From: Lentzea alba
GTDB taxonomy: Bacteria > Actinomycetota > Actinomycetes > Mycobacteriales > Pseudonocardiaceae
Direction of reading: 5' to 3'
Length of the DNA stretch: 64,000 nucleotides
NCBI RefSeq assembly: GCF_011067745.1
Contig: NZ_JAAMPJ010000014.1
Coordinates: 62,001-126,000, forward strand
Positions 1,165-23,296 of the stretch are shown piece after piece. Both the position numbers and the translations under genes were made by a program. Numbering within the stretch: position 1 is the first letter of the stretch; each line of letters opens with the position of its first letter. Below the pieces are notes generated by a model. The model saw nothing but the letters and a program-made list of their open reading frames with translations, did no database searches and was not told the DNA's origin.

Positions 1165-1230
1165 CCATTCCACCCGATCCGGCAAACCTGTGCCGGTAAC
1201 GGCAGGTGTGAGCCCTCTGATACACATCGA

Positions 1231-2271: not shown

Positions 2272-2326
2272 GAAGGCACGCTCGCGCGATGGCGAGCACC
2301 GCGGCTCTCACGCGGAAGGACGCCCG

Positions 2327-4516
2327 GTGAGACGGGGCGGGGCGTTGCCGGCCGTCGCGGCCATCGTGGTGGCCGCGACCGCCGCCGCCTACTTCGCGCC
2401 ACTGGGCGACTTCGCGGCGGCGAACCCCCTGCCGGGCCAGCGGTGGATGCGGGAGCACACCGGGCTCGCGTTGCTGGCCTTCGCCGCGGCCGGACTGCTG
2501 GCCGGAGCGCTGGCATGGCAACGGCGCGGGCCGGCGGAGCGGTCGCACGACGGGCGAGCGGTCGATCGCGACGCCGACGGGTACCTCGACGATCTCCGGC
2601 AACAGGTGCACAAGATCTGGATCACGGGGTTCCTGGACTGCTCGCTGGAACGGATCGTGCCCGCACGGCTCGGGTTCCGGGAGCGCCGCGACGCGATTTC
2701 CGGGCCGTTGCGCAAGATCGGTGACGACGAAGGCGAGCTCGACGTCGACGTGGTCGAGCTGTTCGCCGCGCCTGAGACCGAACGCAGGCTGGTGCTGCTC
2801 GGCGCCCCCGGCGCGGGCAAGACGACGCAGCTGCTCCGGCTCGCTCAGCACCTGCTGTCCGAAGAGGACGGGCCAGTGCCGATCGTGGTCACGTTGTCGG
2901 CGAACAGCTGGCGACTGGACCTGCCCGAGTTGCAGCACGTGCTCAGCGCGGTGCGCACCGACCAGGAGGTCGACGAGGCCGTCCGGGAACGGCGGCGGCA
3001 GGCTTACCAGGCACGGGTCGAGGACGTGGAGAAGGTGCTCGACGCCACGATCGACTGGCTGGCGTGGGAGATCAGCGAGTTGTACGCGGTGCCGCAACGC
3101 AAGGTCGAGGAGTGGTTGCGGGCGGACCACAGCCCGGTGGTGCTGCTGCTCGACGGTCTCGACGAGATCCGGGACCTGGCCGACCGCAGGCGATGCGTGC
3201 GCGTGTTGTCATTGCTGCGCACCCGATTGAACACCGGCATGGTGGTGTGCAGCCGGACGGCGGAGTACTTCGAGACGAGAAGCCACCTGCGGTTCGGGGC
3301 GGCGGCCGAGATCCTGCCGTTGAGCCCGGCGAACGTCGACGAGTACCTGGAGATCGCCGGCGACGAACTGGTGTCGTTGCGCACGGCGTGTCAGCGCAAT
3401 CCCGAGCTGGCGACGTTGTTGAACACGCCGCTCGCGTTGACCGTCGCGGTGCTGACCTATCAGGGCAAGGACGTCACCGACGAGGTCGTGGCGCAGTTGC
3501 TGACCAACCGGCTCGACCACCTGTGGGAGGCGTACCTGCAGGAGGCGCTGCCGAGGCAGCGCAGCCGGACCGGCCTGCGCACCGTGAGCCACACCGACGA
3601 GGAGATCGTCGCCTACCTGCGCAAGCTCGCGCGAATGATGGAAGACGTCCAGCAGGACAGCGTCGCGGTCAACTCGCTGGACCTCACCTGGGTGTGGAGG
3701 ATCGACCCTCTGGCCGGCCGGACGGCGACGTGGCTCTACCTGGCGGCGGCGGCCGTGGCAGGGGCCGGCGTGGCGGCGGTGGCGTGGGTCCAGGCCGATT
3801 TCGCGATGGCGTGGATCAGCGTGCTGGTGCTGGCGGGGACGGCGTTCGCCAACCTGCTCGCCGCGGACCACCCGTTGCCCGGTCAGGACGGAAGGTCGCG
3901 GATGGACCTCAGCGACTTCGTGGACAGCCGCTGGGTGCTGGACGTCACCGCCGGGTGCTCGGCCCTGATCATCCCGCCGGTGACGGGCCTGTTCGCCGGT
4001 CTGTGCGTGGGCATCGTCGGCGGGGCGGAGGCGTTGCCGCTCGGGGTGCTGCCCGGCGTGCTGGCGGGCCTCACGTCCGCGGTGATCTCGTTGCCGCACC
4101 GGGCGCCCGGCGAACGACACCGCTCCGCCAGAAGTGCGGCACGAATGACGCTCTGGGTGCGTGTGCTCACCGGCGCGGTGAGTCTGGCGGTGAGCCTGTG
4201 GCTCCCGTCGCTGCTGATCACGTTCGTCTGGGACCCCGCGTGGCGGCCGACGATGTACTTCATCCTGGTGGCGAGCGGTGTCGGGATGTGGCTCGGTGGC
4301 TTCGCGATCTCGCTGAGCGGCTGGTGGAGTCACACCAGCGCGGTGCGCGCGATCGTCGCGTCGAACACGCTCCCACGGGACATCGACGGGTTCCTCGCCC
4401 ACGCGGAGGATCGCGTGATCATGCGGAAGACCGTGCTGGGCCACGCGTTCCTGCACCGCACGCTGCAGTCCCACCTCGCCTCGAACACAGCCATCAGCCG
4501 GACGTCCTCCGCCTAG
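2327..4516 (+). CDS. Membrane NACHT-domain STAND NTPase
   Basis: A 729-residue protein. The start is set at GTG 2327 because GGAAGGA lies 6 bases upstream; a longer reading frame would overlap the previous gene without such a site. Two N-terminal hydrophobic segments (about 8-28 and 46-65) precede a NACHT P-loop module: Walker A GAPGAGKTT at 159-167 and Walker B VVLLLDGLDEI with Asp at 276. The C-terminal third (about 467-664) contains some six hydrophobic helices, replacing the sensor repeats often found in STAND proteins. NACHT proteins of bacteria include anti-phage and signalling switches that bind ATP, oligomerise and fire an effector; here the membrane segments are the only candidate effector. 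The pair with the upstream membrane protein suggests a two-gene system. The trigger cannot be read from sequence. Confidence 0.87.
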   Translation: MRRGGALPAVAAIVVAATAAAYFAPLGDFAAANPLPGQRWMREHTGLALLAFAAAGLLAGALAWQRRGPAERSHDGRAVDRDADGYLDDLRQQVHKIWITGFLDCSLERIVPARLGFRERRDAISGPLRKIGDDEGELDVDVVELFAAPETERRLVLLGAPGAGKTTQLLRLAQHLLSEEDGPVPIVVTLSANSWRLDLPELQHVLSAVRTDQEVDEAVRERRRQAYQARVEDVEKVLDATIDWLAWEISELYAVPQRKVEEWLRADHSPVVLLLDGLDEIRDLADRRRCVRVLSLLRTRLNTGMVVCSRTAEYFETRSHLRFGAAAEILPLSPANVDEYLEIAGDELVSLRTACQRNPELATLLNTPLALTVAVLTYQGKDVTDEVVAQLLTNRLDHLWEAYLQEALPRQRSRTGLRTVSHTDEEIVAYLRKLARMMEDVQQDSVAVNSLDLTWVWRIDPLAGRTATWLYLAAAAVAGAGVAAVAWVQADFAMAWISVLVLAGTAFANLLAADHPLPGQDGRSRMDLSDFVDSRWVLDVTAGCSALIIPPVTGLFAGLCVGIVGGAEALPLGVLPGVLAGLTSAVISLPHRAPGERHRSARSAARMTLWVRVLTGAVSLAVSLWLPSLLITFVWDPAWRPTMYFILVASGVGMWLGGFAISLSGWWSHTSAVRAIVASNTLPRDIDGFLAHAEDRVIMRKTVLGHAFLHRTLQSHLASNTAISRTSSA

Positions 4517-4541
4517 GCCGGTGTCCTGGGCGGCCGTGTTC

Positions 4542-4555
4542 AGAAAGCGCTTTCT
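4542..4555. promoter_or_regulatory. Perfect 14-bp palindrome, LacI-type operator candidate
   Basis: AGAAAGCGCTTTCT is a perfect inverted repeat with the central CG typical of LacI-family operators. It lies 40 bp before the preferred start of the S33 peptidase gene. A LacI-type regulator gene is encoded 6 kb away, but its own promoter carries a different site, so the cognate regulator is unknown. Confidence 0.45.
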
Positions 4556-4594
4556 CTCCTAGGGTGATCACTTCCCATGAGAGCTGGAGGCGCT

Positions 4595-5989
4595 GTGCGG
4601 TCCCTGAGACGGGCACTGGCAAGTTCGATCGTCGCAACGGTTTTGGTGACGTGCGCGGGTGTCGCGAGCGCCGAACCCGCGCCGGCCATCGCGTGGGCGC
4701 CGTGCGCGGACGACCAGGAGGGCGAGTGCGGGACGTTGAGCGTGCCGCTGGACTGGGCGAAGCCCTGGGGCCAGCGCATCGATGTCGCGGTGGCGCGGCA
4801 CAAGGCGACCGATCCGGCCCGGCGGATCGGCGTGCTCATGGTCGACCCCGGTGGTCCTGGCGGTTCGGCGGCGGCGTTCGCGCTGTCCCGCCTGTTCAGC
4901 CCGGACCTTCGGGCGCGGTTTGACATCGTTGGCATCGACTCGCGGGGGACCGGCAACAGCCTGCCGATCCGCTGTGCCGACCTGATGACCGATCCGCCGT
5001 CGAGCTATCCGGCCGACGAGGCCGGGTTCACCGCGTTGGTGCAGTACAACAAGAACGTGCTCGCCAAGTGTCGTGAACGCAGCGGGCCGATCTTCGACCA
5101 CGCGGACAGCGCGAGCGTCGCACAGGACATGGACGCCGTTCGGCGGGCGCTGGGTGAGCGGAAGATCAGCTATCTCGGGCTGTCGTACGGGACGGTGTTC
5201 GGGCAGGCGTACGCCGAGAAGTTCGGTGACCGGGTCCGTGCGATGGTCCTCGACAGCGTCGTCGACCACAGCGTGGACCTGAAGCGTTTCGTGGGGGAGC
5301 GGGCCGCGGCCGTGGACGACTCGTTCGCCGAGTTCGCTCGTTGGTGCGACCGCACGGTTTCCTGCGCCCTGCACGGACAGGACGTCCACGCGGCCTGGGA
5401 GGCGGCGCTCGTCCGTGCTGACGCGGAACCGCTCGGCCGGCAGCGGCTGATCGACTCCATGTACGGCGCGCTGAGCGTTCCGGACTGGGGGTATGCCACG
5501 CACCTCATCGCCACCACCGGTGCGCAACGCCGGGCCGGCCTCTCCTTCGAACCGAACTACGAGTCGGTCCGGCTGGCCACGGTCTGTCAGGACTTCTCCC
5601 TGCGCATCAGGACCTTCTCCGAGTACTCCCGGCTGCGGGCCGAGGAGCTCCGCCGGTCACCGATCATGCGCGGCAGCCTCATCGGCCACGACGAGGCCAC
5701 CGCGTGCGCCGGTGTTCCCGGACCGCCCAGCAACCCACCACACCGGCTGAACATCAGCGACGCGCCGAAGATCCTGGTGCTCAGCGCGCGGCACGACCCG
5801 ACGACGCCGTACGCCTGGGCCGTCAACATCCACCGCCAGGCGCCGCGCAACACCGCGCTGCTGACGTACGAGGGATGGGGCCACGTGGCCTATCCCCAGA
5901 GCGCCTGCACGCGCGGTGGCGTCGACGACTACCTGCTGGACCTGAAGGTGCCGGCGGTCAGCTGTCCTGCGATCGAGCCGCCGCGATGA
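4595..5989 (+). CDS. Exported alpha/beta-hydrolase, S33 tripeptidyl-aminopeptidase-like
   Basis: About 464 residues. Start GTG 4595 is preferred because GGAGG lies 4 bases upstream; an in-frame ATG at 4577 lacks such a site. An N-terminal signal sequence (basic RSLRR, then a hydrophobic run ending near GVASAEP) sends it out of the cell. The fold is the SlpD/SlpE-like secreted peptidase family: nucleophile elbow GLSYG, oxyanion-type loop DPGGPGGSA, a C-terminal TAP-like segment with the acid Asp in SARHDPTTPYAW and the catalytic His in GWGHVAYP. Such enzymes release tripeptides or amino acids from N-termini outside the cell. The 3' end overlaps the convergent beta-glucosidase gene by 32 bp. 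The exact substrate cannot be told. Confidence 0.88.
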   Translation: MRSLRRALASSIVATVLVTCAGVASAEPAPAIAWAPCADDQEGECGTLSVPLDWAKPWGQRIDVAVARHKATDPARRIGVLMVDPGGPGGSAAAFALSRLFSPDLRARFDIVGIDSRGTGNSLPIRCADLMTDPPSSYPADEAGFTALVQYNKNVLAKCRERSGPIFDHADSASVAQDMDAVRRALGERKISYLGLSYGTVFGQAYAEKFGDRVRAMVLDSVVDHSVDLKRFVGERAAAVDDSFAEFARWCDRTVSCALHGQDVHAAWEAALVRADAEPLGRQRLIDSMYGALSVPDWGYATHLIATTGAQRRAGLSFEPNYESVRLATVCQDFSLRIRTFSEYSRLRAEELRRSPIMRGSLIGHDEATACAGVPGPPSNPPHRLNISDAPKILVLSARHDPTTPYAWAVNIHRQAPRNTALLTYEGWGHVAYPQSACTRGGVDDYLLDLKVPAVSCPAIEPPR

Positions 5990-7322
5990 ACGCGCGGTAC
6001 CAGTGGTAGCTGGCGCGCGGTGAGCGGGCCTGGCTTTCGTAGTCGACGTGGACCAGGCCGAACCGGTGCTTGTAGCCGTGCGCCCACTCGAAGTTGTCCA
6101 GCAGTGACCAGCAGAAGTAGCCGCGGAGGTCCACTCCGGCCGCCGCGGCCGCTTCGGCTGCGCCGATGTGGTCCTGCAGGAAGTTGATGCGGTCGAGGTC
6201 CGCGAACCCGTCCACGTCGGGGTAGACGCAGCCGTTCTCCGTGACGTAGACGGGCGGCAGGCCGGGGTGGCGGGCCTTGAGGTCCGTCAACGCGGTGGTG
6301 AGACCGGCGGGTTCGACCGGCCAGCCCATGCCGGTCCGGGGGACGTCCGGCAGCTGGGTCGTGTCGACGCCGATGTCGTGGGCGGTGCGCTTGGCCGGGT
6401 CCGGCTCCCGGTGCGGCGCGTCGGCGACGTGCAGCCGGTAGTAGTAGTTGAGGCCGACGTAGTCCAGCGGTTCGCCGATGATCGCCAGGTCGTCGTCGTG
6501 CCGGAACGAGAAGTCGGTGATCGCGCCGAACATCGAGGTCAGCTCGTCCGGGTAGGCCGAGCCGAACAGCGGGTCGGTGAACTGGCGGCGCAGCAGGCAG
6601 TCCTGGCGACTGGCCGCGGCGACGTCGGCGGGGGAGTCCGTCACCGGCACGGCCGGGGACTGGTTGAGCACGATGCCGAACTCCTGGCCCGGCAACCCGT
6701 TGGCGCGCATGGCCTGCACCGCCAGGCCGTGGCCCAGCAGGTGGTGGTGCGCCGCGGCCAGGGCGCCGTGGCCTTCCCGTGCCCCGGGTGCGTGGCGGCC
6801 CTCGCCGTAGCCCACGATCGAGGAGCAGTACGGCTCGTTCAGCGTGGTCCACTTGGAGACGACGTCACCGAGCGCCTCGTGCACGGTCGCCGCGTAGTCG
6901 GCGAACCAGCCGGACGTCTCGCGGACGCGCCACCCGCCCCGGTCCTCCAGCGCCTGCGGCAGGTCCCAGTGGTACAACGTGACGAAGGGCTCGATCCCGT
7001 TGTCCAGCAACGACTCGATCAGCCGCCGGTAGAAGTCGAGGCCGCGCTGCTCGACCCGCCCGTGACCGTCCGGCAGGATCCTCGACCACGAGATCGAGAA
7101 CCGGTACGCGTCCACGCCCAGGTAGGCGAGCAGCCGCACGTCCTCGGCCCAGCGGTGGTAGTGGTCCGCCGCCACGTCACCGGTGTCGCCGGACGCGACG
7201 GCACCGGGCACGGTGGCGAAGGTGTCCCAGACGGACGGGCCGCGGCCGTCGAGCGCCGCCGCCCCTTCGATCTGATAGGCCGAGGTCGCCACACCCCAGC
7301 GGAAGCCGGCCGGAAAGCTCAC
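5958..7322 (-). CDS. GH1 beta-glucosidase
   Basis: A 454-residue cytoplasmic glycoside hydrolase family 1 enzyme of normal length. The N-terminal signature FRWGVATSAYQIEGA, acid/base Glu163 in TLNEP and nucleophile Glu362 in VTENG are all intact. It hydrolyses beta-linked disaccharides or aryl glucosides with retention. It is the last gene of a four-gene operon with two sugar permeases and a binding protein, 21 bp behind the upstream permease stop, so it most likely splits the sugar imported by that transporter (for example cellobiose or another beta-glucoside). The exact sugar is inferred only. No signal peptide is visible. The 3' end overlaps the convergent S33 peptidase gene. Confidence 0.95.
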   Translation of the reverse strand: MSFPAGFRWGVATSAYQIEGAAALDGRGPSVWDTFATVPGAVASGDTGDVAADHYHRWAEDVRLLAYLGVDAYRFSISWSRILPDGHGRVEQRGLDFYRRLIESLLDNGIEPFVTLYHWDLPQALEDRGGWRVRETSGWFADYAATVHEALGDVVSKWTTLNEPYCSSIVGYGEGRHAPGAREGHGALAAAHHHLLGHGLAVQAMRANGLPGQEFGIVLNQSPAVPVTDSPADVAAASRQDCLLRRQFTDPLFGSAYPDELTSMFGAITDFSFRHDDDLAIIGEPLDYVGLNYYYRLHVADAPHREPDPAKRTAHDIGVDTTQLPDVPRTGMGWPVEPAGLTTALTDLKARHPGLPPVYVTENGCVYPDVDGFADLDRINFLQDHIGAAEAAAAAGVDLRGYFCWSLLDNFEWAHGYKHRFGLVHVDYESQARSPRASYHWYRAFIAAARSQDS

Positions 7323-7343
7323 AACAGTCTCCCAAGAACGAGG

Positions 7344-8231
7344 TCAGCCTTTGACGGCGCCGGACATGATGCCGCCGACGATCTGGCGGCCGAACAACAG
7401 GAACACGGCCAGCACGGGAACCGTGCCGATGGTCGCGGCGGTGAGCACGAGCGTGTAGTCGGTGGTGTAGCCGCTGGCCAAAGTGGACAGAGCGGTCTGC
7501 ACGGTCGGGTTCTCCGGCACCAGCACCACGAGCGGCCAGAAGAAGTCGTTCCACGCCTGCATGAACGTGAACAACCCGAGCACCGCCGCGGCCGGCCGGG
7601 CGGCGGGCAGCGCGACGTGCCAGAACAGCCGCAGCGAGTGGCACCCGTCCATCCGGCCCGCCTCGAGCAGCTCGTCCGGGATCGCCCGCTCGAAGTACTG
7701 CCGCATGAAGAACACGCCGAACGCGGTCACGAGCCCCGGCACGATCACCGCGTGGATCTCCCCGGCCCAGCCGAACTCGCTCATCATCATGTACAGCGGG
7801 ATGATGCCGAGCTCGGTCGGGATCGCCTGGGTGGCGATGATGAGCAACAGCAGCACGTTGCGGCCGCGGAACTTCATCTTGGCGAACGCGAACCCGGCCA
7901 GCGTCGAGAACAGCACCACGGACACGGTCACCGTGCTCGACACGATGATCGAGTTCATCATCGCGAGCGCGAAGTCCGTGGTGTCGAAGACGCGGGCGAT
8001 GTTCTCGAACAGGTGGCCGCCCGGTACCAGGACCGGCGGCACGCTGTCGATCGCGTCCGGTGTCTGCGAGGACACCACGAACGACCAGTACACGGGGAAG
8101 GCCGACCCGGCGAGCACGGCGATCAGTGCGGCGTACGTCCACGGTCCGGCCACGCGCCGGGCCAGCCTGCGCGCTTTCCCCGCGGGACCGGTGGGGCGCA
8201 CCGGTGCGGGACGTTCCAGCACAGCGGTCAT
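7344..8231 (-). CDS. Carbohydrate ABC transporter permease, MalG type
   Basis: A 295-residue inner-membrane permease of the CUT1 sugar importer class. An N-terminal helix (TYAALIAVLAGSAFPVYW) is followed by five further hydrophobic segments. The EAA loop that docks on the ATPase is present as EAGRMDGCHSLRLFWHVALP. No ATP-binding subunit is encoded in this operon, as is usual in actinomycetes where one shared MsiK-like ATPase serves many importers (family knowledge). It starts 4 bp after the stop of the companion permease, indicating translational coupling. Confidence 0.93.
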   Translation of the reverse strand: MTAVLERPAPVRPTGPAGKARRLARRVAGPWTYAALIAVLAGSAFPVYWSFVVSSQTPDAIDSVPPVLVPGGHLFENIARVFDTTDFALAMMNSIIVSSTVTVSVVLFSTLAGFAFAKMKFRGRNVLLLLIIATQAIPTELGIIPLYMMMSEFGWAGEIHAVIVPGLVTAFGVFFMRQYFERAIPDELLEAGRMDGCHSLRLFWHVALPAARPAAAVLGLFTFMQAWNDFFWPLVVLVPENPTVQTALSTLASGYTTDYTLVLTAATIGTVPVLAVFLLFGRQIVGGIMSGAVKG

Positions 8232-14593: not shown

Positions 14594-15543
14594 CCGGTCC
14601 AGCGCACGACGTCGGCGAAAGTCGCGTTCCCACCGCACACCACGATCCCGAGCCGGGCCCCGGGCCCGACCCGATCGAGCACCGAGCCCGCCGCCGCGAC
14701 CAGACAGCCGGCGGCGGGCTCGGCCCACACCTTCTGCGTCTCGGCCAGCGTGATCGAGCCCCGCACGGCCTCGGCGTCGGACACCACCAGCACGTCCTCG
14801 ACCAGCGCGACCGTGTGGTCGTAGGTCAGCTGCGACACGTGGGGCGCTGAGAGCGTCGAGACGATCGACGTGGGCGTGAAGTCCACCGGTCCGCCCGCCG
14901 CCAGCGCGCGGTGCATCGCATCGGCGCCCTCGACCTCGACGCCCCACACGCGGATGCCGGGCACGAGCGCGTGGAACGCCGTCGCGACGCCGGAGATGAG
15001 CCCTCCGCCGCCGATGCTCACCAGCACGTCGGTCAGGTCGGGGGCGTCCTGAGCGAACTCCAGGCCCACGGTGCCCTGACCCGCGACCACGACCGGGTCG
15101 TCATAGGGGTGTACAAGGGTTTTGCCCGCCGCGACCAGGTCGTTCAACAGCGCGAACGCGGACGGCAGGTCGTCGGTGAGGCGCACGTCCGCACCGCAGG
15201 CGCGGGCGAGTTCGACCGAACGCGCGGGTGCCGAGGCGGGCATCACGACGGTCGCGGCCACACCCAGCGAACGAGCGACATCCGCCAGCGCGATGCCGTG
15301 GTTGCCGCCGCTGACCCCGACCACGCCCGCCGCCCGCGCCTCGTCGGACAGCGAGAGGATCTTCGCGAACGCGCCGCGCGTCTTGAACGAACCGGTGTGC
15401 TGCAACAACTCCAGCTTCACCGTCGTCGGGACGCCGAGCAGCGCGGACAGCCCGGGCGAGGGGAGCGTCGGCGTGCGCAGCACCCGTCCGTCGAGCACCT
15501 CGGCCGCGGCCCGCACGTCGCCGATGGTCACCAGTTCAGCCAT
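14575..15543 (-). CDS. PLP-dependent threonine/serine dehydratase family protein
   Basis: A 322-residue fold-type II PLP enzyme. ATG 15543 is preferred over the upstream TTG 15561 because AGGTGAGG lies 5 bases before it. The PLP lysine is in HTGSFKTRGAF and the phosphate-binding glycine loop appears late as VSIGGGGLISG. The substrate loop reads SGGNHG, as in threonine/serine dehydratases and racemase relatives. It lacks the C-terminal ACT regulatory domain of biosynthetic IlvA, fitting a catabolic dehydratase or a serine racemase-like enzyme. It probably acts alone: neighbours are a secreted esterase (convergent) and the RiPP-like locus (divergent). Confidence 0.88.
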   Translation of the reverse strand: MAELVTIGDVRAAAEVLDGRVLRTPTLPSPGLSALLGVPTTVKLELLQHTGSFKTRGAFAKILSLSDEARAAGVVGVSGGNHGIALADVARSLGVAATVVMPASAPARSVELARACGADVRLTDDLPSAFALLNDLVAAGKTLVHPYDDPVVVAGQGTVGLEFAQDAPDLTDVLVSIGGGGLISGVATAFHALVPGIRVWGVEVEGADAMHRALAAGGPVDFTPTSIVSTLSAPHVSQLTYDHTVALVEDVLVVSDAEAVRGSITLAETQKVWAEPAAGCLVAAAGSVLDRVGPGARLGIVVCGGNATFADVVRWTGQHFTQ

Positions 15544-15676
15544 GCCCCTCACCTTAGTCAATCGGCGAATCCTTTACCCGGTAAGCAAAAATCGATTTTG
15601 GAGCGTTCTTGGCGGTTTCTTGGAGAGCGCTGGCAGGCTCACTCGTGTCGGTATCCGAGCCAGAGGAGGTGCTCTC

Positions 15677-15784
15677 ATGGAGAAGACCAAGACGACGAAA
15701 ATGAAGAAGATCACGGTGCGCAAGGTGGGCCCGGTTCGCCTCACGGCGGCAGCCTGCTCGCAGTACAACGTCAAGCCGGCTTAA
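15677..15784 (+). CDS. Candidate RiPP precursor peptide, 35 residues
   Basis: A 35-codon gene with a strong ribosome site, GAGGAGGT ending 7 bases before the ATG. The first 22 residues are highly basic and free of Cys (MEKTKTTKMKK then ITVRKVGPVRLT, a plausible beta-strand for docking on a peptide recognition domain). The last 13 form a small, neutral tail: TAAACSQYNVKPA, with one Cys, one Ser, one Tyr and a C-terminal Pro-Ala. This leader/core appearance, followed by a hairpin and then by an M50 protease with a PqqD-like N-terminus, is what a ribosomally made, post-translationally modified peptide gene looks like. I do not recognise the class: no LanC-like, YcaO, radical SAM, or lasso cyclase gene is present nearby. 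Natural product assignment is inference. Confidence 0.7.
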   Translation: MEKTKTTKMKKITVRKVGPVRLTAAACSQYNVKPA

Positions 15785-15795
15785 GGCGCGGCGCG

Positions 15796-15826
15796 GATGC
15801 GCTGGGCCTCAAGCGCCCAGCGCATC
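15796..15826 (+). terminator. 12-bp perfect hairpin after precursor gene
   Basis: GATGCGCTGGGC and GCCCAGCGCATC pair perfectly around a 7-base loop, 11 bases after the precursor stop and 19 before the protease start. Without a T-run it may act as a partial terminator or RNA stabiliser, giving more precursor than enzyme mRNA, as is common in RiPP operons. Confidence 0.75.
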
Positions 15827-15845
15827 TCACCGGGGGAGGAGCGAC

Positions 15846-17051
15846 GTGACCGAGTTCGACCTGGACCGGCCGGTGCCACTGCACCCGCTGGTGTTCCTGG
15901 AGGACGGCGACGAGGTGACGATCGGCAGGGCCGACATCGACTCGTACGGCATCTTCCCCGGTGAGGGTGCCGAACTCGTGCGCAGGCTGGTCGCGGGCGA
16001 CACGCCGCGCCAGGCGGCCGACTGGTTCGAGCGGACCTACGGGGAAGGCGTCGACATCGAGGACGTCGTCGCGGGGCTGGACGAGCTCGACCTCGTCCGC
16101 AAGTCCGGCGAGCTCGTCACGCGGACCGCGCCGGTGCGCTTCAGGCGGCTCGGTGCCGCGCTGTTCTCGCCGCTGGCCTGGGTGGTCTACGCGGGTCTGG
16201 CCGCTTGGGCGTTGTTCGTCATGGTGGTCAACGCGGATCTCCGGCCGAGTTATCACAACATATTCTTCTCCGACTATTACATGCTGATCCAGGTCGGACT
16301 GTTCGCGGCCGCCATTCCGCTGCTGCTTTTGCACGAGTCCTTTCACGCGTTGGCCGGGCGCAGGCTCGGCATCACATCGCGACTGAGAATCGGGCGGCGG
16401 CTCTACTTCATCGTGCTGGAGACCTCGCTGGACGGGCTCGTGGCGGTGCCGCGCCGCCGGCGGTACCTGCCGATCGTGGCCGGCCTGCTGGCCGACGTCA
16501 TCGGAATCGCCGTGTGCACCATCGCCGCCGACCTCACGCGACACCCGGACGGCTCGCTGTCGGGTGCGGGACGGTTCCTGCTGGCCGTGGCGTTCGCCGC
16601 GCTGCTGCGGGTCATCTGGCAGTTCTTCTTCTACCTGCGCACGGACATCTACGTGCTCGTGACCACCGTGCTCGGCTGTGTCGACTTGCACGGCGCCGCC
16701 CGCCAGATCGTGCGCAACCGGTTCCGGTGGCTGTTCGGGCGCAGTGAGACGGACGAGTCGCTGCTGCACCCGATCGACCGCCAGGTGGCGCGCTGGTACT
16801 CGTGGCTCGTCGTGGTCGGGTACACGGCCAGCCTCACCACGTTCGTGCTCGCCGGTGCCCCGGTGGCATATCGGTTCGCCACCGGCGTGATCAGCCGGAT
16901 CACCGGTGATGGCGTGCCGACGCCCTTGTTGCTCGACTCGATCGTCTTCGGTGGCGTGGCGATCGTGCAGTGCGCGGTGCTCGGCTGGCTGATGGTCCGC
17001 GAACGCGTGCAGACCCGCCGGGATCACCGTCTGCAGCACGTCATCCACTGA
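15846..17051 (+). CDS. M50-type membrane metalloprotease with PqqD/RRE-like N-terminus
   Basis: A 401-residue membrane protein starting at GTG 15846 behind GGGGGAGGA. Residues 1-90 have the PqqD/RRE look (IDSYGIFPGEGAELVRRLVA, then DIEDVVAGLDELDLV), a domain that binds leader peptides. From about 105 a chain of hydrophobic helices begins; zinc motif HESFH at 163-167 lies inside a helix, and a later CVDLHGAA near 278 could supply the third ligand, as in site-2-protease-like M50 peptidases. The family is annotated as putative peptide zinc metalloprotease. Its place right after the 35-residue peptide suggests it binds and cleaves, or exports and cleaves, that peptide. Six or more membrane helices are expected. 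Confidence 0.85.
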   Translation: MTEFDLDRPVPLHPLVFLEDGDEVTIGRADIDSYGIFPGEGAELVRRLVAGDTPRQAADWFERTYGEGVDIEDVVAGLDELDLVRKSGELVTRTAPVRFRRLGAALFSPLAWVVYAGLAAWALFVMVVNADLRPSYHNIFFSDYYMLIQVGLFAAAIPLLLLHESFHALAGRRLGITSRLRIGRRLYFIVLETSLDGLVAVPRRRRYLPIVAGLLADVIGIAVCTIAADLTRHPDGSLSGAGRFLLAVAFAALLRVIWQFFFYLRTDIYVLVTTVLGCVDLHGAARQIVRNRFRWLFGRSETDESLLHPIDRQVARWYSWLVVVGYTASLTTFVLAGAPVAYRFATGVISRITGDGVPTPLLLDSIVFGGVAIVQCAVLGWLMVRERVQTRRDHRLQHVIH

Positions 17052-17076
17052 CTCGCTTCACCGAAAGGGACGCATC

Positions 17077-19152
17077 ATGGACAGCCGCTACTGGATCCGC
17101 GCCGACCGGCGACGCGACCGGACGCACGCGCTCGCCGCGCTGGACCTGCCGCCGATCTGGGCGACTGTCGACGCGCACCGGCGGCTGCGCGGGCCGTACA
17201 CCGCGGCGGGGTCGTTGCTGCGCATGGTCGCCGACGACCTGCTGGAGCGGTGCCCGGAACTGGCGGAGCGGCACAACATCGAACTGCTCACCAGCACGCC
17301 GGAACTGGCCGGGAGGGTGCCCAGCGCGTGGCACACGCTGGAATGGGAGGTGAAGGACAGCGAACGCACCCGGTACTACTCGCGGCTGCACACCCGCAAC
17401 ATCGCCAACGGCCTGGCCGAGGTGTTGCGCGACTACCTGGCCGCACTGGGCGGCGGGCCGCGCACGCTGGTGTTCGAGAACGCGCACGAGGCCGACCCGT
17501 CGGACCAGGAGCTCATCGCGGTCCTGCTCCGCCGCGGCGACCTCCCCGATCTCACCGTGGTCGTGGGCACGAGCCGGGAACCGCTGGTCGACCCGCGCGG
17601 TGAGATCGACGTGTCGCTGGCTGAGACGATCGCCGCGCACGCACAAGTGGTGGACGCGTGTGCCGGAGAACATCCGCTGCCCGACCACGCGGCACAGGCC
17701 TATGTGGACAGTGACGGCACGGACGACGACCCGCTCGTGCTCGCCGCCTACCTCGCCTTGTCGGAAGAAGCCAGAGCCGCACTGCACGACGCCCGCGCCG
17801 AGGAGCTCGCACGGTCCGCGGAGTTCTCGTTGCGCCTCGGCGCGATCCCGTACCACCTGGAGCACGGCAGCGACCCCGCCGGAGCCGGCGCGGCTGCCCT
17901 GCGCGCCGCGCTGGACCACTGCCACAAGACCGGGCTGTACCAGGCCGCCGCGGACCTCGGGCTGCGCGGCCGGGCGGTCGCGGACCGGGCGAGCGAGACC
18001 TGGTGGCACCTCACCATGCAGACCGGGATCGTGCTGGCGGCGGTAGGCCGGGCGGACGAGGCGGAGGTGCTGTACGTCGAGGGCCGCGCCGCGTCCACGG
18101 ATCCGGCCGTGCACCTGGAAATGGCGTACTCGACGGCGATGTTGCACGCGCGGCACTACCCGGAAGCCCAACGGGACTACGTGCGCGCACGGGCGTGGAT
18201 GAATTTGGCTATTGCAATGGCTTCAGTGTTGACTGATCCCAAGACCGAGGCGTTCCAGTCCGTCTTCACGCGCAACGGCCTCGCGCTCGTGGAGGTCCGG
18301 GAGAAGAAGCCGGAGGTCGCGCTCGCCCTCGTCAACGAGGGCATGGCCAGGCTGGACCGGGACCTGGAACCGCACGAACACGCACTGCATCGCCTGGTGC
18401 TGCGCTACAACCGGGCGCAGGTCTACGGCGCCATGGGCCGGTTGGACGAGGCTCTCGCCGACTACACCTACGTTCTCGAACGGGATCCGAACTTCCCCGA
18501 GCACCACTTCAACGTCGGCAACGTGCTGCGCAGGCTCGGCCGCGACGAGGAGGCGATCGCCGCCTACCGCGAGGCACTGCGCCTCTCACCGCCGTTCCCC
18601 GAGGCGTACTACAACCTCGCCGACGCACGCCTCGCTCTCGGCGACACCGAAGGGGCCCTGGCGGATTTCGGCTACGTCATCGAGCTCGACCCGCGGCACG
18701 TCGACGCCAGGATCAACCGTGCCGGACTCCTGCTCGCCGATGGTGACGTCGAGGGGGCGTGGCGTGATGTGACCGTCGCGCTCGAACTGGCGCCGGACAA
18801 CGCACACCTGTTGTGCCTCAAAGGACAGCTGCTCGTCGAACGGGAGGAGTACGCCGAGGCCTCCGTTGCACTGGCCGAAGCGGTGCAGCGCAACGAACGG
18901 CTGGCTGAAGCCTGGGCGATCCGTGGCACGATCGCGGTGGCGTCCGGCGACCTCACCGACGCGATCAGCTACCTGAGCCGGGCCATCACGCTCGACGACA
19001 ACCCGGAGGCGCGGTTCAACCGCGCGGTCGCGTACGAGGAGTCCGGGGACCTGGGTGCGGCGATCCTCGACTACGACGCCGTCCTCGCCGTCACCGACGA
19101 CGAGGACGCGCGGCACCGCAGGGAACTCTGCGCCGCGGCCACGGCCAGGTAG
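17077..19152 (+). CDS. TPR protein with degenerate AAA-like N-terminal domain
   Basis: A 691-residue cytoplasmic protein 25 bp behind the protease gene. Residues 1-300 look like a decayed AAA/STAND ATPase module: PRTLVFENAHEADPSDQELI resembles the Walker B region of LuxR-type AAA_16 domains, but no Walker A GxxxxGKT is visible, so ATP binding is doubtful. From about residue 310 to the end run tetratricopeptide repeats, clearest at LDEALADYTYVLERDPNFPE, DEEAIAAYREALRLSPPFPE and TEGALADFGYVIELDPRHVD. TPR arrays bind peptides or proteins, so a scaffold role in peptide maturation is inferred. Codons at 18202-18237 are unusually AT-rich compared with the rest of the gene. Confidence 0.85.
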   Translation: MDSRYWIRADRRRDRTHALAALDLPPIWATVDAHRRLRGPYTAAGSLLRMVADDLLERCPELAERHNIELLTSTPELAGRVPSAWHTLEWEVKDSERTRYYSRLHTRNIANGLAEVLRDYLAALGGGPRTLVFENAHEADPSDQELIAVLLRRGDLPDLTVVVGTSREPLVDPRGEIDVSLAETIAAHAQVVDACAGEHPLPDHAAQAYVDSDGTDDDPLVLAAYLALSEEARAALHDARAEELARSAEFSLRLGAIPYHLEHGSDPAGAGAAALRAALDHCHKTGLYQAAADLGLRGRAVADRASETWWHLTMQTGIVLAAVGRADEAEVLYVEGRAASTDPAVHLEMAYSTAMLHARHYPEAQRDYVRARAWMNLAIAMASVLTDPKTEAFQSVFTRNGLALVEVREKKPEVALALVNEGMARLDRDLEPHEHALHRLVLRYNRAQVYGAMGRLDEALADYTYVLERDPNFPEHHFNVGNVLRRLGRDEEAIAAYREALRLSPPFPEAYYNLADARLALGDTEGALADFGYVIELDPRHVDARINRAGLLLADGDVEGAWRDVTVALELAPDNAHLLCLKGQLLVEREEYAEASVALAEAVQRNERLAEAWAIRGTIAVASGDLTDAISYLSRAITLDDNPEARFNRAVAYEESGDLGAAILDYDAVLAVTDDEDARHRRELCAAATAR
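18221..18236 (+). repeat. TTCAG-TGTTG motif copy inside the TPR gene
   Basis: CTTCAGTGTTGACTGA matches three intergenic copies at 27836, 27991 and 32435. It sits in a run of codons (AAT TTG GCT ATT GCA ATG GCT TCA GTG TTG ACT GAT) of which eight of twelve end in A or T, in a gene where nearly all codons end in G or C. Confidence 0.6.
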
Positions 19153-19163
19153 GAGGAATCGCC

Positions 19164-19685
19164 GTGACAGCAACGGAGAACGTGGCCCCGGGGATGCCGG
19201 TGGCCACGTTCACCGACGCCATGAGCCGGCTGGTCTCCGGTCTCGCCGTGGTCACCACGCGACAGGCGAACGGACGGCCGTGCGGGTTGCTCGTCTCGTC
19301 GATCTGCTCGTACAGCGTGGATCCGCCGTCGGTGCTGGTGGTCGTCGACCACGCCTCGCGCTGCCGTGACCCTCTCGCGCACTGCGCCGAGTTCGGCGTG
19401 CACGTGCTCGGCCACACCGAGGAACGCACCGCGCGGACGTTCGCGAGCCGTGGCGTGGACAAGTTCGCCGACGTCGGGTGGGAGTGGGACGGCGCCGTGC
19501 CCCGGTTGTGCGCGGCGCCGATCTACTTGCGCTGCACTACCACCGCCGTGTTCGACCACGGCGACCACACCGTCCTGATCGGCGAGGTCACCCGCACCGC
19601 GCTGACCGAAGCCGAGCCGTTGGTGTGTTACCGGCGGCTGTTCCACTGGAGACTGAGAGGCTCGCAGGTTCGCTCAACCCTGTGA
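19164..19685 (+). CDS. Flavin reductase-domain protein
   Basis: A 173-residue protein of the flavin reductase-like FMN-binding split barrel family. Typical features are FTDAMSRLVSGLAVVTTRQ, the substrate loop GRPCGLLVSSICSYSVDPPS (a family hallmark near residue 45), and FGVHVLGHTEERTARTF. Members reduce FMN/FAD with NAD(P)H to feed an oxygenase, or use flavin directly. AGGAGG (19151-19156) overlaps the TPR gene's stop and precedes the GTG by 7 bases, so it is the last gene of the precursor-protease-TPR unit, before a strong hairpin. No flavin-dependent oxygenase is encoded nearby, so the protein may itself act on the peptide (for example on Cys or Tyr) or supply reduced flavin to a distant enzyme. 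Confidence 0.85.
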   Translation: MTATENVAPGMPVATFTDAMSRLVSGLAVVTTRQANGRPCGLLVSSICSYSVDPPSVLVVVDHASRCRDPLAHCAEFGVHVLGHTEERTARTFASRGVDKFADVGWEWDGAVPRLCAAPIYLRCTTTAVFDHGDHTVLIGEVTRTALTEAEPLVCYRRLFHWRLRGSQVRSTL

Positions 19686-19700
19686 CCCGGCTTCCTGGCG

Positions 19701-19725
19701 CTGGTAGTCCAACGTGGACTACCAG
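19701..19725 (+). terminator. Hairpin terminating the RiPP-like operon
   Basis: CTGGTAGTCC and GGACTACCAG form a perfect 10-bp stem with a 5-base loop, 15 bases after the flavin reductase stop. No T-run. The right arm enters the PfaD-like fragment. Confidence 0.7.
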
Positions 19726-19878
19726 GTGCGCTGCGGCCCTTCGACGGGCGCGTTCGACCAGGCGGTCGCCGGTACGGAGCTCGAGTCCTGGCATGCGCGC
19801 ACGGTCGAAGCCGTGGCCGACGTGCTGATGGAGGGTGCCGCGGCGCACATCACCGCCCGGCTGGCGACCTTCGGGTGA
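19714..19878 (+). pseudogene. C-terminal remnant of a PfaD-type enoyl reductase
   Basis: Fifty-four codons beginning right after an in-frame stop read VDYQVRCGPSTGAFDQAV then AGTELESWHARTVEAVADVL and MEGAAAHITARLATFG. This matches from memory the very C-terminus of PfaD/trans-AT-PKS enoyl reductases (DYQ-x-x-CGP-x-x-GAF-x-x-x-V-x-G-x-x-LE ... LM-x-GAA). The several hundred residues of FMN barrel expected upstream are absent; the flavin reductase gene of the RiPP-like unit stands there instead. It is therefore a truncated relic, not a working gene. Its end overlaps the tail of the convergent SARP gene by 29 bp. It suggests that a polyketide or polyunsaturated fatty acid cluster once lay here and was replaced or deleted. 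Confidence 0.6.
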
Positions 19879-20692
19879 CCGCCCCGGCGAGGTGCCGGTG
19901 GCCGCGGTCGAACGGGTCGTCCCCGCTCAGGATGACCTGATGCATGGCCCGCAACCGCGGCCCCGGCTCGATGCCGGCGTGGCTCGACAGCTCGCGGTAC
20001 GCCCTGGCGTACGCGGTCAGCGCGTCGGCGCGGCGGTCGGCCTGGCACAGCGCGAGCATCAGCTGCTCGTGGAACCGTTCGCGCAACGGGTAGTCGGTGC
20101 ACAGTTCCTCGAGTTCGCGCACCGCGAGGTGTCCGTCGCCGTGGCAGAGCATGACGTCGAACCGATTGCGCAGCAATTCCAGGTATTCCTTTTCCAGTCG
20201 TGAGATGTCGTGGTCGAACACGCCGGTCTCGCGGAGATCCGCCAACGGCGCGCCGCGCCACAGGCCGAGTGCCGCGGCGATCGCCTCTCGTGCGCGTGCG
20301 CAGTCGCCGACGGCTATCTCGGCCTGTGCTCGTTTGGCCAGTTCTCGGAATCTGGTGAGGTCCAGCTGGTGCGGTTCCAGGCAGAGCACGTAACCGGCAG
20401 GGCGGGTGTTCAGGATCGGGTGTGAATTCCTGGAGCTGTTCCACCCCGGCGTGAGTGCCCGCCGCACCGCGGTGACGTAGCCGTGCAGTGCGGCGATGGC
20501 CGAGCGGGGAGCGCCCCGCGTCCACAGCTGGTCCACGATGCGGCGGGTCGCCACGAACTCGTTGGCGTGCAGGGCGAGCAGTGCGAGCAAGGCCCGCTGT
20601 TTCGGTGCTGTCGGCGTGCATCTTCGATTGCCGCGGGTGATTTCGAACGTGCCCAGAACCCGGAACTGCAGTGGTTCGTCGTGAAGACTCAC
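19850..20692 (-). CDS. SARP-family transcriptional activator (AfsR/RedD type)
   Basis: About 280 residues from GTG 20692. The open frame extends upstream to GTG 20881, but those 63 extra residues show no domain, and SARPs normally begin just before the DNA-binding strand LQFRVLGTFEITRG. A winged-helix OmpR-like domain (about 5-100, with PKQRALLALLALHAN and LWTRGAPRSAIAALHGYVTAVRRAL) is followed by the bacterial transcriptional activation domain (about 110-265, LDLTRFRELAKRAQAEIA ... RERFHEQLMLALCQADRRADAL). SARPs switch on antibiotic clusters. It is convergent with the PfaD relic, so it could belong to a lost polyketide cluster or now control the neighbouring RiPP-like unit. Start is uncertain. 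Confidence 0.85.
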   Translation of the reverse strand: MSLHDEPLQFRVLGTFEITRGNRRCTPTAPKQRALLALLALHANEFVATRRIVDQLWTRGAPRSAIAALHGYVTAVRRALTPGWNSSRNSHPILNTRPAGYVLCLEPHQLDLTRFRELAKRAQAEIAVGDCARAREAIAAALGLWRGAPLADLRETGVFDHDISRLEKEYLELLRNRFDVMLCHGDGHLAVRELEELCTDYPLRERFHEQLMLALCQADRRADALTAYARAYRELSSHAGIEPGPRLRAMHQVILSGDDPFDRGHRHLAGAVTRRSPAGR

Positions 20693-20971
20693 TCGGCCAG
20701 TGTCAGTCAGTCCGCGGGCTTCGAGGTAGTGCTCGGCGCGAAACTGCCGTGCATTCGGTTCTCGGATCGGCAGATCCGTGGCGTTCAGGTGAAATTCGAT
20801 TCTGGGTCGCCGTGGAATCTCTTGTCGGATCACATGTGTCGGGTGTTCGCATTCGTCTGATGAGGCAGAAATACCACGCACGCGGGTGAGTGCGTTGGTG
20901 TGTCCGGACGCAACTCCCTAACGTCGGCGATCAGTTCCCGAACCAACCCCGCCGCTGAAGGGATCCTGCTC

Positions 20972-23296
20972 GTGCGAAGACGTTTGCCGGCGATGTTGCT
21001 GGCGACCGCGCTCGCTGGCAGCACGCTCACCGCCGCTGTCCCCGTGGTCGCCCAACCGTCCGTTTCCACGCTCACCAAGTCCGTGCAAGGCGTGTCCGAT
21101 CCCGCCGGCCACGGTGACACCGCCACCTGGGTCGTGTCGTACGCGAACGGCGCCCCCGGCGCCGCCACCATCACCGACACCATCGGCACCGGCCAGACCT
21201 ACCTGCCCGGCTCGCTGCAGGTGCCGCCCGGCTGGACCGGGACCGAAGGCAACCCGATCAGCGCGACGAATCCCGGCGTGCGCAACGGCGGCAGGGCGCT
21301 GTCCAGCCTGCTCACCCCGCCCGTGCAGGCCAGCGCGACCCCGACTGGTGGCGACGGCTTCACCCCGATCCTGCACCGCACGCCGGACGGTCGCCTGCAG
21401 GCGTGGAACGTCTACCACCACGTGGCCGCCGCGTTCCCGAAGCTGGTGTGCACCGACCTCACGACCAGCGCCCCGTGCACGGGTGGTCCGTGGCCGAAAC
21501 CGCTCAACACGACCCCCGGCCCGTTCGGCACGGGCAACACCGGCGACATCGCCAGCCCGCTGGAACCGCAGTACGTCCGCGATCCGGCGAACCCGGCCCG
21601 CGTGTACTACTCGGCGGCCACCGCGACCTCGATCGGCGTTGGCTGCCTCGACCTCGCCGCACCCGGCAACTGCGGCTACTGGCCGCTGATGACCCGCGCC
21701 GGGCAGACGACCGACCTGGGCGGACTCGTCCAGATCGGCGGAAACCTCTACGGCGTGGCGACCTCCGGTTACGTTGTCTGCTGGACGATGGCCACCCAGA
21801 GCGCGTGCGCGAACCAGCCGTACGCGCCGATCGTGCCGTTCACCAACAGCAACGGGTGGTATCTCGGCGCGCTGACCGTGGCCGCGGGCAAGCTGTTCGC
21901 GTCGTCGTCACCCTTCGGCGGTGGCGTCCCCGTGCTCGGCTGCTTCGACCCCGGCACCACAGGCGTGTGTGGTGGCTGGCCGGCCCCGAAGCCGATCGGC
22001 CCGTCCGGCAACTACACCTACAACGCCTACACCGCCTACAGCACAACGGGCGCGGAGACCGGTGCGTGCTCCAGCACGACCGGCGCCCAGAACGTCACCA
22101 CCTGCTACGCGGTCGACGGGTCGTCCCTGCCCGCTCCGACGTCCGCGGCGGGCCTGGAAGGCGGCGTCATCGTCTTCAACCCCGAGCTGATCCGCACCGG
22201 TGACCGCGTGCGCAGCTACCTCGGCGTGTGGCGCGGCCCGTACCTGGGGGCGGCGGTGTGCCACGACTGGAGCACCGGCACGTCCTGCGCCGGCCTGCCA
22301 CCGCGCATCACCCACCCCAACGTCAACGGTGGCGACACACGGGATTACGGCTACGCCTACGACGCTCCCACCGGCTGCCTGATCGGTCTGGGCGACGCCG
22401 GCGTGCTGTTCTCGATGGATCCTGACACGGGGGCGTCGCCGTGCGTACGCAGTGGCGCCTCCGTGTCGCTCACCCCGTCGCAGTTCTACTGCGACGGCAA
22501 ACCCCACGCCGTCAGCTACACCAAAGCGCGCCTGACCGGCGTGACACCTGCGAACGTGAACTTCGGCGCGTCCACCGTCTCGGTCACCGACCAGAACGGA
22601 AACCCCGTGGCCACACCGGGTTTCGCGCCTGACGGCACCGTCGACCTGAGCGGCGCCTCCGCCACCACGCTGACCGTCACGGCGTCGCTCGTGCTGAACA
22701 ACGCGTCGGACTTCGGCGGCGGCAACCAGCCGTCACTGGTCGTGGAGTTCACCGGCGACGCACCCCAGATGTGCTTCCGCACCACGATCTCCGCGGACTG
22801 CCCGGTCACGTCGATCGCCAACACCGCGGGCGGCACCGACGCGACCGGCACCCTCACCTCCAACACCGTGACCAGGCAGGTGGCACCGGGTGCGGCGTGC
22901 ATGCCGAACGTGGTGGTGAACAAGGAGATCTGCGCCTCGCACACACCCGCGCACTGCAAGGCGGGCGGCGCCGGGCCGTGGGTGAAGGAGGCCCCCGTGG
23001 GCGTCCTCGGCCTGCTGTTCGCGACCGCGTACTGGCGCGTCACCGTGACCAACAACGGCCCGATCCCGATCGCGGACGCCTACGTGGTCGACGAGGTGGA
23101 ACCGTCCTGCCAGACCGGACCGTTCGCCTTGCAACCCGGTGAGTCGAAGCAGGTGCACTGCTCGACCTACGCCCTGCTGTCGTTGTTCCCGATGACGAAC
23201 AAGGCGAAGGCGAAGTACACCCCGCCGAACGCGGCCCGCACCTACACCGACTGGTCGTCCGCCAAGGCGTGTTCCCTGCTCTGCGTGCTCAACTAA
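20972..23296 (+). CDS. Large secreted protein with Cys-pair repeats and DUF11-like tail
   Basis: About 774 residues from GTG 20972, with AAGGGA 8 bases upstream and a signal peptide (AMLLATALAGSTLTAAVPVVAQ). A DUF11-like strand-rich region follows (TKSVQGVSDPAGHGDTATWV). The middle holds at least five related units with a Cys pair and an aromatic-Pro end: CTDLTTSAPCTGGPWP, CLDLAAPGNCGYWP, CWTMATQSACANQPY, CFDPGTTGVCGGWPAP, CHDWSTGTSCAGLPP. Their spacing of about 50-80 residues suggests blades of a propeller. The last 130 residues (YWRVTVTNNGPIPIADAYV) resemble DUF11 adhesion-type domains with six Cys. No sortase signal or membrane anchor is visible, so it is probably released or wall-associated by adhesion. 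Function unknown. Confidence 0.8.
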   Translation: MRRRLPAMLLATALAGSTLTAAVPVVAQPSVSTLTKSVQGVSDPAGHGDTATWVVSYANGAPGAATITDTIGTGQTYLPGSLQVPPGWTGTEGNPISATNPGVRNGGRALSSLLTPPVQASATPTGGDGFTPILHRTPDGRLQAWNVYHHVAAAFPKLVCTDLTTSAPCTGGPWPKPLNTTPGPFGTGNTGDIASPLEPQYVRDPANPARVYYSAATATSIGVGCLDLAAPGNCGYWPLMTRAGQTTDLGGLVQIGGNLYGVATSGYVVCWTMATQSACANQPYAPIVPFTNSNGWYLGALTVAAGKLFASSSPFGGGVPVLGCFDPGTTGVCGGWPAPKPIGPSGNYTYNAYTAYSTTGAETGACSSTTGAQNVTTCYAVDGSSLPAPTSAAGLEGGVIVFNPELIRTGDRVRSYLGVWRGPYLGAAVCHDWSTGTSCAGLPPRITHPNVNGGDTRDYGYAYDAPTGCLIGLGDAGVLFSMDPDTGASPCVRSGASVSLTPSQFYCDGKPHAVSYTKARLTGVTPANVNFGASTVSVTDQNGNPVATPGFAPDGTVDLSGASATTLTVTASLVLNNASDFGGGNQPSLVVEFTGDAPQMCFRTTISADCPVTSIANTAGGTDATGTLTSNTVTRQVAPGAACMPNVVVNKEICASHTPAHCKAGGAGPWVKEAPVGVLGLLFATAYWRVTVTNNGPIPIADAYVVDEVEPSCQTGPFALQPGESKQVHCSTYALLSLFPMTNKAKAKYTPPNAARTYTDWSSAKACSLLCVLN

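Follow-up and report, generated by a model that had tools for sequence, protein, structure and literature searches.

What does an operon make whose first gene encodes a peptide of only 35 residues and whose second gene encodes a membrane protease? The question was raised by positions 15677 to 19725 of a 64,000-nucleotide stretch of Lentzea alba DNA (contig NZ_JAAMPJ010000014.1, positions 62,001 to 126,000), here called the window. The operon consists of the peptide gene and genes for an M50-type metalloprotease with a predicted N-terminal RRE (recognition element of ribosomally synthesized and post-translationally modified peptides, RiPPs), a tetratricopeptide repeat (TPR) protein and a flavin reductase-like protein, all on the + strand with gaps of 61, 25 and 11 bp. 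A terminal hairpin 3' of the flavin reductase gene (19701..19725, +; stem CTGGTAGTCC/GGACTACCAG) closes it; the 60-base stretch at this hairpin gave a raw folding energy, without shuffle control, of -28.6 kcal/mol. Four co-directional genes with about these gaps and a closing hairpin had been described in an earlier reading of the letters alone, the original prediction, and a coordinate check confirmed them. We concluded, with a probability of roughly 0.7, that the locus encodes a compact pathway of the RiPP type, probably of an undescribed class, with peptide, RRE-M50 protease and TPR protein as its minimal unit.

The precursor peptide MEKTKTTKMKKITVRKVGPVRLTAAACSQYNVKPA is encoded at 15677..15784 (+), with an AGGAGGT ribosome site at 15664-15670, 6 nt 5' of its ATG. 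Its leader extends to about Thr23 and is followed by a core of about AAACSQYNVKPA. In the window and nine same-genus genomes the last 27 codons and the stop contained 3, 3 and 12 variable sites at codon positions 1, 2 and 3, one of the twelve falling in the stop codon. Because the variation is mostly third-position, the open reading frame (ORF) is kept as a protein. The leader, with the consensus MKKI.VRK.G.VRLT, is nearly fixed (R15, G18, L22 and T23 were invariant in 30 diverse peptides) and the tail is hypervariable. Some loci hold two or more precursors, the tails of which differ slightly in L062, L068 and L097 and are identical in L066. If the logic of lasso peptides holds, in which a Thr stands at -2 (accessible parts of PMC10885120), a cut one residue past the Thr would release AACSQYNVKPA, which matches the core guessed in the original prediction.

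Genomes of 84,980 species, one per species, were scanned with an alignment of ten M50 proteins as query, and the best 80 of 166 confirmed loci, chosen on the M50 protein alone, were compared. All 80 were actinomycete by record title, some being metagenome assemblies, and they span Lentzea, Streptosporangium, Sphaerisporangium, Streptomyces, Kitasatospora, Nocardia, Micromonospora, Actinokineospora and others. A homologous small ORF should precede related M50 and TPR genes if the unit is real. Such an ORF, its leader identical or close to that of the window, was found 5' of the M50 gene in 79 of the 80 loci (77 by leader pattern; L061 and L104 by eye); in the exception, L118, the contig ends only 22 bases before the M50 match. 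The TPR gene followed the M50 gene in 80/80 loci. When 1-kb stretches were used as a control, the leader pattern occurred in 73/75 upstream of the M50 gene, in 1/75 on the opposite strand and in 0/335 located 3-8 kb further upstream; a single match in L042, a long way downstream, and an additional degenerate copy in L068 were left uncounted. Among 40 relatives the M50 protein was present in 17 genomes and the peptide (E up to 1) in 18, with 16 in common. The peptide-only matches in G024 and G034 were weak (E 0.23 and 0.28), and the genome with the M50 protein only (G035) has a divergent peptide right after the M50 gene. The closest M50 relatives are 91% identical (same-genus G022) and 87% identical (L. 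atacamensis, the nearest named one). An encoded precursor with a conserved leader and a variable core beside a processing gene is what generally defines a RiPP locus, and precursor and RRE protease are the well supported part of the pathway.

A second copy of the system was detected in the same genome (G000:C22:278162-279325; L035:8163-9326), with the peptide MQKMSIRKAGTIRLTSPSYYCPCSAN, an M50 protein 41% identical to that of the window and a TPR gene; it is followed by two large genes with N-termini of the Streptomyces antibiotic regulatory protein (SARP) type. More distantly, L037, L038 and L039 (genomes G029, G035 and G037) contain RRE-M50 proteins of 28-31% identity with short peptides adjoining, the leaders of which are like VRRLEPVKTTA, VRKLEPIKTSA and IRKLDKIETTS. 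Pairs of RRE-M50 protein and peptide may thus form a larger family beyond the TPR-linked branch.

The cores vary in nearly everything except two residues. In the 79 loci picked by the M50 protein, Tyr was present in 79/79 cores and Cys in 78/79, with the first Tyr at +7 from the leader Thr in 67 loci and at +6 in 7. A larger set was obtained by adding further copies and 120 listed peptides out of 565 candidates in the protein database (E up to 1; none of the 120 names mentions a RiPP). Its 172 distinct cores contained Tyr in 172 and Cys in 171, the first Tyr followed the leader Thr at +7 in 144, and the Cys nearest to a Tyr lay at -3 to +7. Shuffles of the pooled residues gave at most 109 cores with both residues. 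The window's type, C-x-x-Y, was found in 37 loci, and in the rest the Cys mostly adjoins or follows the Tyr. The reading of the peptide as leader plus core with a conserved Cys and Tyr therefore holds across the related loci.

The second gene (15846..17051, +) encodes 401 amino acids from a GTG start. The window's M50 protein gave no Pfam match at E up to 1; at this threshold PF02163 matched 15 and PqqD 7 of 45 aligned members. The HExxH zinc motif, here HESFH (16332..16346, +; residues 163-167), is invariant in the alignments, and H163, E164, H167 and D267 were present in 45/45 members. The protein thus has the HExxH in a membrane helix and the distal Asp ligand of a site-2 protease. In the predicted model the N-terminus (residues 8-86; 15867..16103, +) folds as an RRE, with lasso RREs as the top matches, and residues of about 143-341 match RseP/S2P. 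An N-terminus of another fold would have spoken against the original prediction; as modelled, this domain is predicted to be the leader-binding element of the pathway.

The TPR protein (17077..19152, +; 691 amino acids) consists of a degenerate STAND/AAA-like N-terminal half and a TPR superhelix. Its degenerate Walker A motif, RGPYTAAGSLLR at 17188..17223 (+), has no Lys; the region reads RLRGPYTAAGSLLR, and a Lys was missing at residues 39-48 in 44/44 aligned members. A Walker-B-like stretch persists, so that the earlier description as a decayed ATPase was right. TPR models of Pfam matched the protein, and AAA_16 (E 0.0016) did so only over the stretch holding the Walker-B-like half. The confident model (pLDDT 95.4) shows a long superhelix preceded by an alpha/beta N-terminal half; in structure searches TPR matches dominated. 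The named relatives (120 listed of 714) are called tetratricopeptide repeat protein or similar. With its degenerate AAA/STAND-like half and TPRs the protein resembles regulators of the AfsR type with SARP and STAND-TPR parts, but unlike these it has no matched SARP or helix-turn-helix (HTH) domain and, in 44/44 members, no P-loop Lys. A defence system was considered and rejected: PADLOC gave nothing for the M50 protein and the flavin reductase (E up to 0.01) and weak matches only for the TPR protein (best 8.9e-5).

The fourth gene is optional. It encodes a flavin reductase-like protein (19164..19685, +; PF01613, E 4.4e-29), and such a gene adjoins the TPR gene in only 35/80 loci, 33 of them on the same strand and in the same slot and two on the other strand; the one of L070 is a weak match (3e-6). 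A gene of the old yellow enzyme (OYE) type occupies the slot in a further 5/80 loci (L046: PF00724, 5.5e-65). We therefore rejected the flavin reductase as a core enzyme, and the operon drawn in the original prediction stands without it as a conserved unit; in part of the loci a SARP regulator and a repeat have to be added. Flavin genes accompanied 32/37 C-x-x-Y cores vs 8/42 others. In a tree of the M50 proteins the window and 36 of the loci with C-x-x-Y cores fell into one clade of 37 rows, with L096 apart.

Four features go beyond the original prediction: the second system copy, a hairpin between peptide and M50 gene, a triple 11-bp repeat and a convergent SARP gene. The latter (19850..20881, -; BTAD and Trans_reg_C; PF03704, 2.2e-36) was found at the same place and on the same strand in 9/9 same-genus loci with the full operon, and also in G031. 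Three direct repeats, a putative SARP operator, lie at 15598..15626 (+), 79 bp upstream of the peptide ATG, with YTGG cores at 15598, 15609 and 15620, so that direct repeats with an 11-bp period stand before the first gene. Three heptamers with 4-bp spacers and an 11-bp period form the classical SARP-type operator (accessible parts of PMC5930380). The pattern YTGG-N7-YTGG-N7-YTGG at -160 to -50 was detected in 18/41 rows with a SARP-like gene vs 1/38 without, a count that includes seven close Lentzea rows, with 11/18 matches outside Lentzea; the lone match without such a gene is L069, a locus ending 2.9 kb after the M50 gene. Shuffled sequences gave none in rows with the gene and at most one in rows without. 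The period of 11 alone stood out in the SARP-gene rows, with 22/41 at a score of at least 12 vs 0 to 1 at periods 8-10 and 12-14. This pattern suggests that the operon is under SARP control through putative binding at the triple repeats.

The hairpin between peptide and M50 gene (15796..15826, +) has a stem of 15796-15807 paired with 15815-15826. In the window the intergenic stretch reached -33.6 kcal/mol (z -1.4); over the window and 79 loci the median z was -2.3 and 48/80 lay below -2, z values that come from mononucleotide shuffles, which can overstate stability, and that take the start of the M50 match as the gene start. Perhaps the hairpin is a partial terminator that sets the ratio of peptide to enzymes. 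A known RNA element was not detected, as Rfam gave no match at 15500-15900 at E up to 0.1.

From these parts a mechanism can be proposed. A SARP activator would bind the three 11-bp repeats and switch the operon on, and the hairpin 3' of the peptide gene would let the precursor be made in excess of the enzymes. The RRE of the M50 protein would then bind the leader K-I-x-V/I-R-K-x-G-x-V-R-L-T and offer the core to the membrane zinc site, which would sever core from leader near the RLT motif and release the core across the membrane, making an ABC transporter unnecessary. A comparable double role has been proposed for EpeP, which is thought both to cut and to export (accessible parts of PMC10885120). 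The TPR protein, related to STAND/AfsR and devoid of the P-loop Lys, may be a non-ATPase scaffold or a peptide receptor. The Tyr and Cys of the core would be the functional residues and likely modification sites, and in lineages such as that of the window a redox step may be contributed by a flavin enzyme, either a flavin reductase or an OYE. That Tyr and Cys are chemically modified is our hypothesis, suggested by their constancy. A more specific version is tentative: a new and widespread actinomycete RiPP class in which Tyr and Cys, spaced from C-x-x-Y to a Cys 7 residues past the Tyr, are joined or jointly modified, a thioether macrocycle between Cys and Tyr being one example. The RRE-site-2 protease and the TPR protein that lacks the P-loop, helped in some loci by a flavin enzyme, would be the entire machinery, and the chemistry would proceed with no RiPP modification enzyme of a known family.

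Several observations weigh against the RiPP-type pathway or its proposed chemistry. Beyond the M50 and TPR proteins no modification enzyme recurred across the loci in a survey by eye with crude gene calling, and in the same survey no widely recurrent exporter or immunity gene was seen; because no such enzyme recurs, modification beyond proteolysis has no assigned catalyst. The association between flavin genes and core type lies mostly within one clade of the M50 tree and thus represents few independent events. Since the profile used to find the 120 database peptides contained a Tyr column, their Tyr count is biased and the 79 loci are the fair test. The peptides beside the distant RRE-M50 proteins of L037, L038 and L039, where there is no TPR gene, have no Tyr; its constancy is therefore tied to the TPR-linked branch and is not general to pairs of RRE-M50 protein and peptide. 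The peptide of L104 (Amycolatopsis suaedae), MKKIVVRKAEPIRPTSQYWQ, has an altered leader and a Tyr but no Cys; with 20 amino acids it is the shortest of the set, located at -169 from the M50 gene, and a PNPOx-type gene follows the TPR gene. For the M50 model Foldseek returned no match at E 0.001 or better (best 0.094), and the best RseP row by Z has a root-mean-square deviation of 19.4, the other rows having 4.9-5.0.

The main rival is an unmodified pheromone, which we consider unlikely. Here the M50 protease would free a short Tyr- and Cys-containing peptide. Cells would take it up again, and the TPR protein would sense it and then act on SARP or other regulators. Only the protease and the TPR protein are universal, SARP genes are frequent neighbours, and hypervariable tails fit specificity groups. 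RRNPP-type TPR receptors sense peptides and have an N-terminal HTH and a TPR domain. The TPR protein of the window, however, showed no HTH at E up to 1 among the matches listed (25 families) nor any other matched output domain, although its architecture resembles STAND/AfsR, and AfsR carries NOD and TPR domains (accessible parts of PMC10936776). A SARP-like gene was not seen in 38/79 rows, some of these loci being short, the flavin enzymes in 40/80 loci would be left unexplained, and tandem precursors whose cores differ slightly are seen more typically in RiPPs. To our knowledge an RRE on a protease and a fixed Tyr with a nearby Cys are unusual for pheromones, and we count this against the rival.

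A divergent branch of a RiPP class already known to use RRE or M50 proteins, daptides or pearlins, is highly improbable. Daptide clusters, the accessible parts of PMC10036551 describe, carry an RRE at the N-terminus of an intramembrane site-2 protease (MpaP/DapP), an architecture that led to their discovery and that is predicted here as well. They share with the window a short adjoining precursor with a conserved leader and their occurrence in Actinomycetota, and a weak profile link exists through the distant M50 protein of L037 (G029; 28% identical), which matches NF041824, daptide_HExxH, with E 5e-6 and 25.9 bits against a cut-off of 300. The M50 protein of the window itself has no daptide match at E up to 1. 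Daptide precursors carry ELExMEAP in the leader and an invariant C-terminal Thr; the window's family has MKKI.VRK.G.VRLT, no ELExMEAP motif and a C-terminal Thr in 4/172 cores, and in contrast to daptides it has a conserved TPR protein and a core marked by Tyr and Cys. Between 3 and 31 kb of the window 25 genes were called, and by Pfam these include no DapB, no DapC (oxidative decarboxylase), no PF00465-type dehydrogenase, aminotransferase, methyltransferase or lanthipeptide-dehydratase-like gene. The epipeptide protease EpeP and the pearlin proteases TglG and TmoG are, like the window's protein, membrane M50 proteases acting on RiPP precursors (accessible parts of PMC10885120); unlike in those systems, no radical SAM gene and no gene like a peptide aminoacyl-tRNA ligase (PEARL, a lanthipeptide-dehydratase-like tRNA-dependent ligase) is near the operon, and the cores differ. 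From lasso systems (RRE of TbiB1, 6jx3) the window differs in that the same 25 genes include no lasso cyclase and no transglutaminase-type B leader peptidase. At the other loci, genes of the DapB/DapC, aminotransferase, methyltransferase, lasso or PEARL type were not seen by eye among the recurrent neighbour families.

Least probable of all is that the small ORF is an attenuator in which ribosomes stalling at the nearly invariant Tyr and Cys codons control the strong hairpin before the M50 gene. What is most conserved is VRK.G.VRLT, with mostly third-position variation, a feature required for RRE binding but not for attenuation. The stem starts 11 nt past the stop codon, and Rfam gave no match.

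The absence of a known RiPP modification enzyme, stated in the original prediction, was borne out among the 25 genes, where Pfam also detected no lasso cyclase and no radical SAM enzyme; the Pfam cut-off was 1e-5 in part of the runs, in which four genes had no match. The families found were sugar transport and hydrolases, LacI, PALP, SARP, DUF7617, DUF1540, MgtC, aldo/keto reductase, RbpA, thymidine kinase, PadR and others. The DUF7617 gene (20900-23296, +) encodes a large secreted protein and is divergent from the SARP gene. It was rejected as a cluster member, as among the loci examined only the near relative G022 has a full-length copy next to the operon; in L041 part of a relative lies elsewhere.

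Other RiPP-related genes were observed near some loci. In L029 (G007) a LanD-like flavoprotein gene (about 7217-8017, -; PF02441, 1.3e-16), of uncertain start and overlapping the peptide in its longest reading, lies beside the peptide MKKIAIRKNGSIKLTSSAPGYCTPCC, whose core ends in Cys-Cys; the two would fit decarboxylation of a C-terminal Cys in that lineage. In L038 (G035), YcaO- and TfuA-like genes at 3850-5859, seen by eye some 3 kb from the distant M50 gene, could be a thioamide RiPP cluster. L028 (G018) contains, also by eye, a LanM-like synthetase and a short Cys-rich precursor (about 1055-4170, -; the M50 gene is on +), about 4 kb from the peptide, M50 and TPR genes and with SARP-type genes between.

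In the open texts of PMC, so far as these are accessible, no account of the peptide family was found and six of its leader strings were not matched; an unnamed mention in the supplements of RRE-mining studies is possible. We regard the locus as a strong candidate for a new class of peptide or signal made on the ribosome, and peptide, RRE-M50 protease and TPR protein form a clean, testable unit. It raises a direct question: which protein acts on the Tyr and the Cys, and what does it do to them? If the reading is true, the class would be invisible to searches keyed to known RiPP modification enzymes, which have no handle on it because it carries none.

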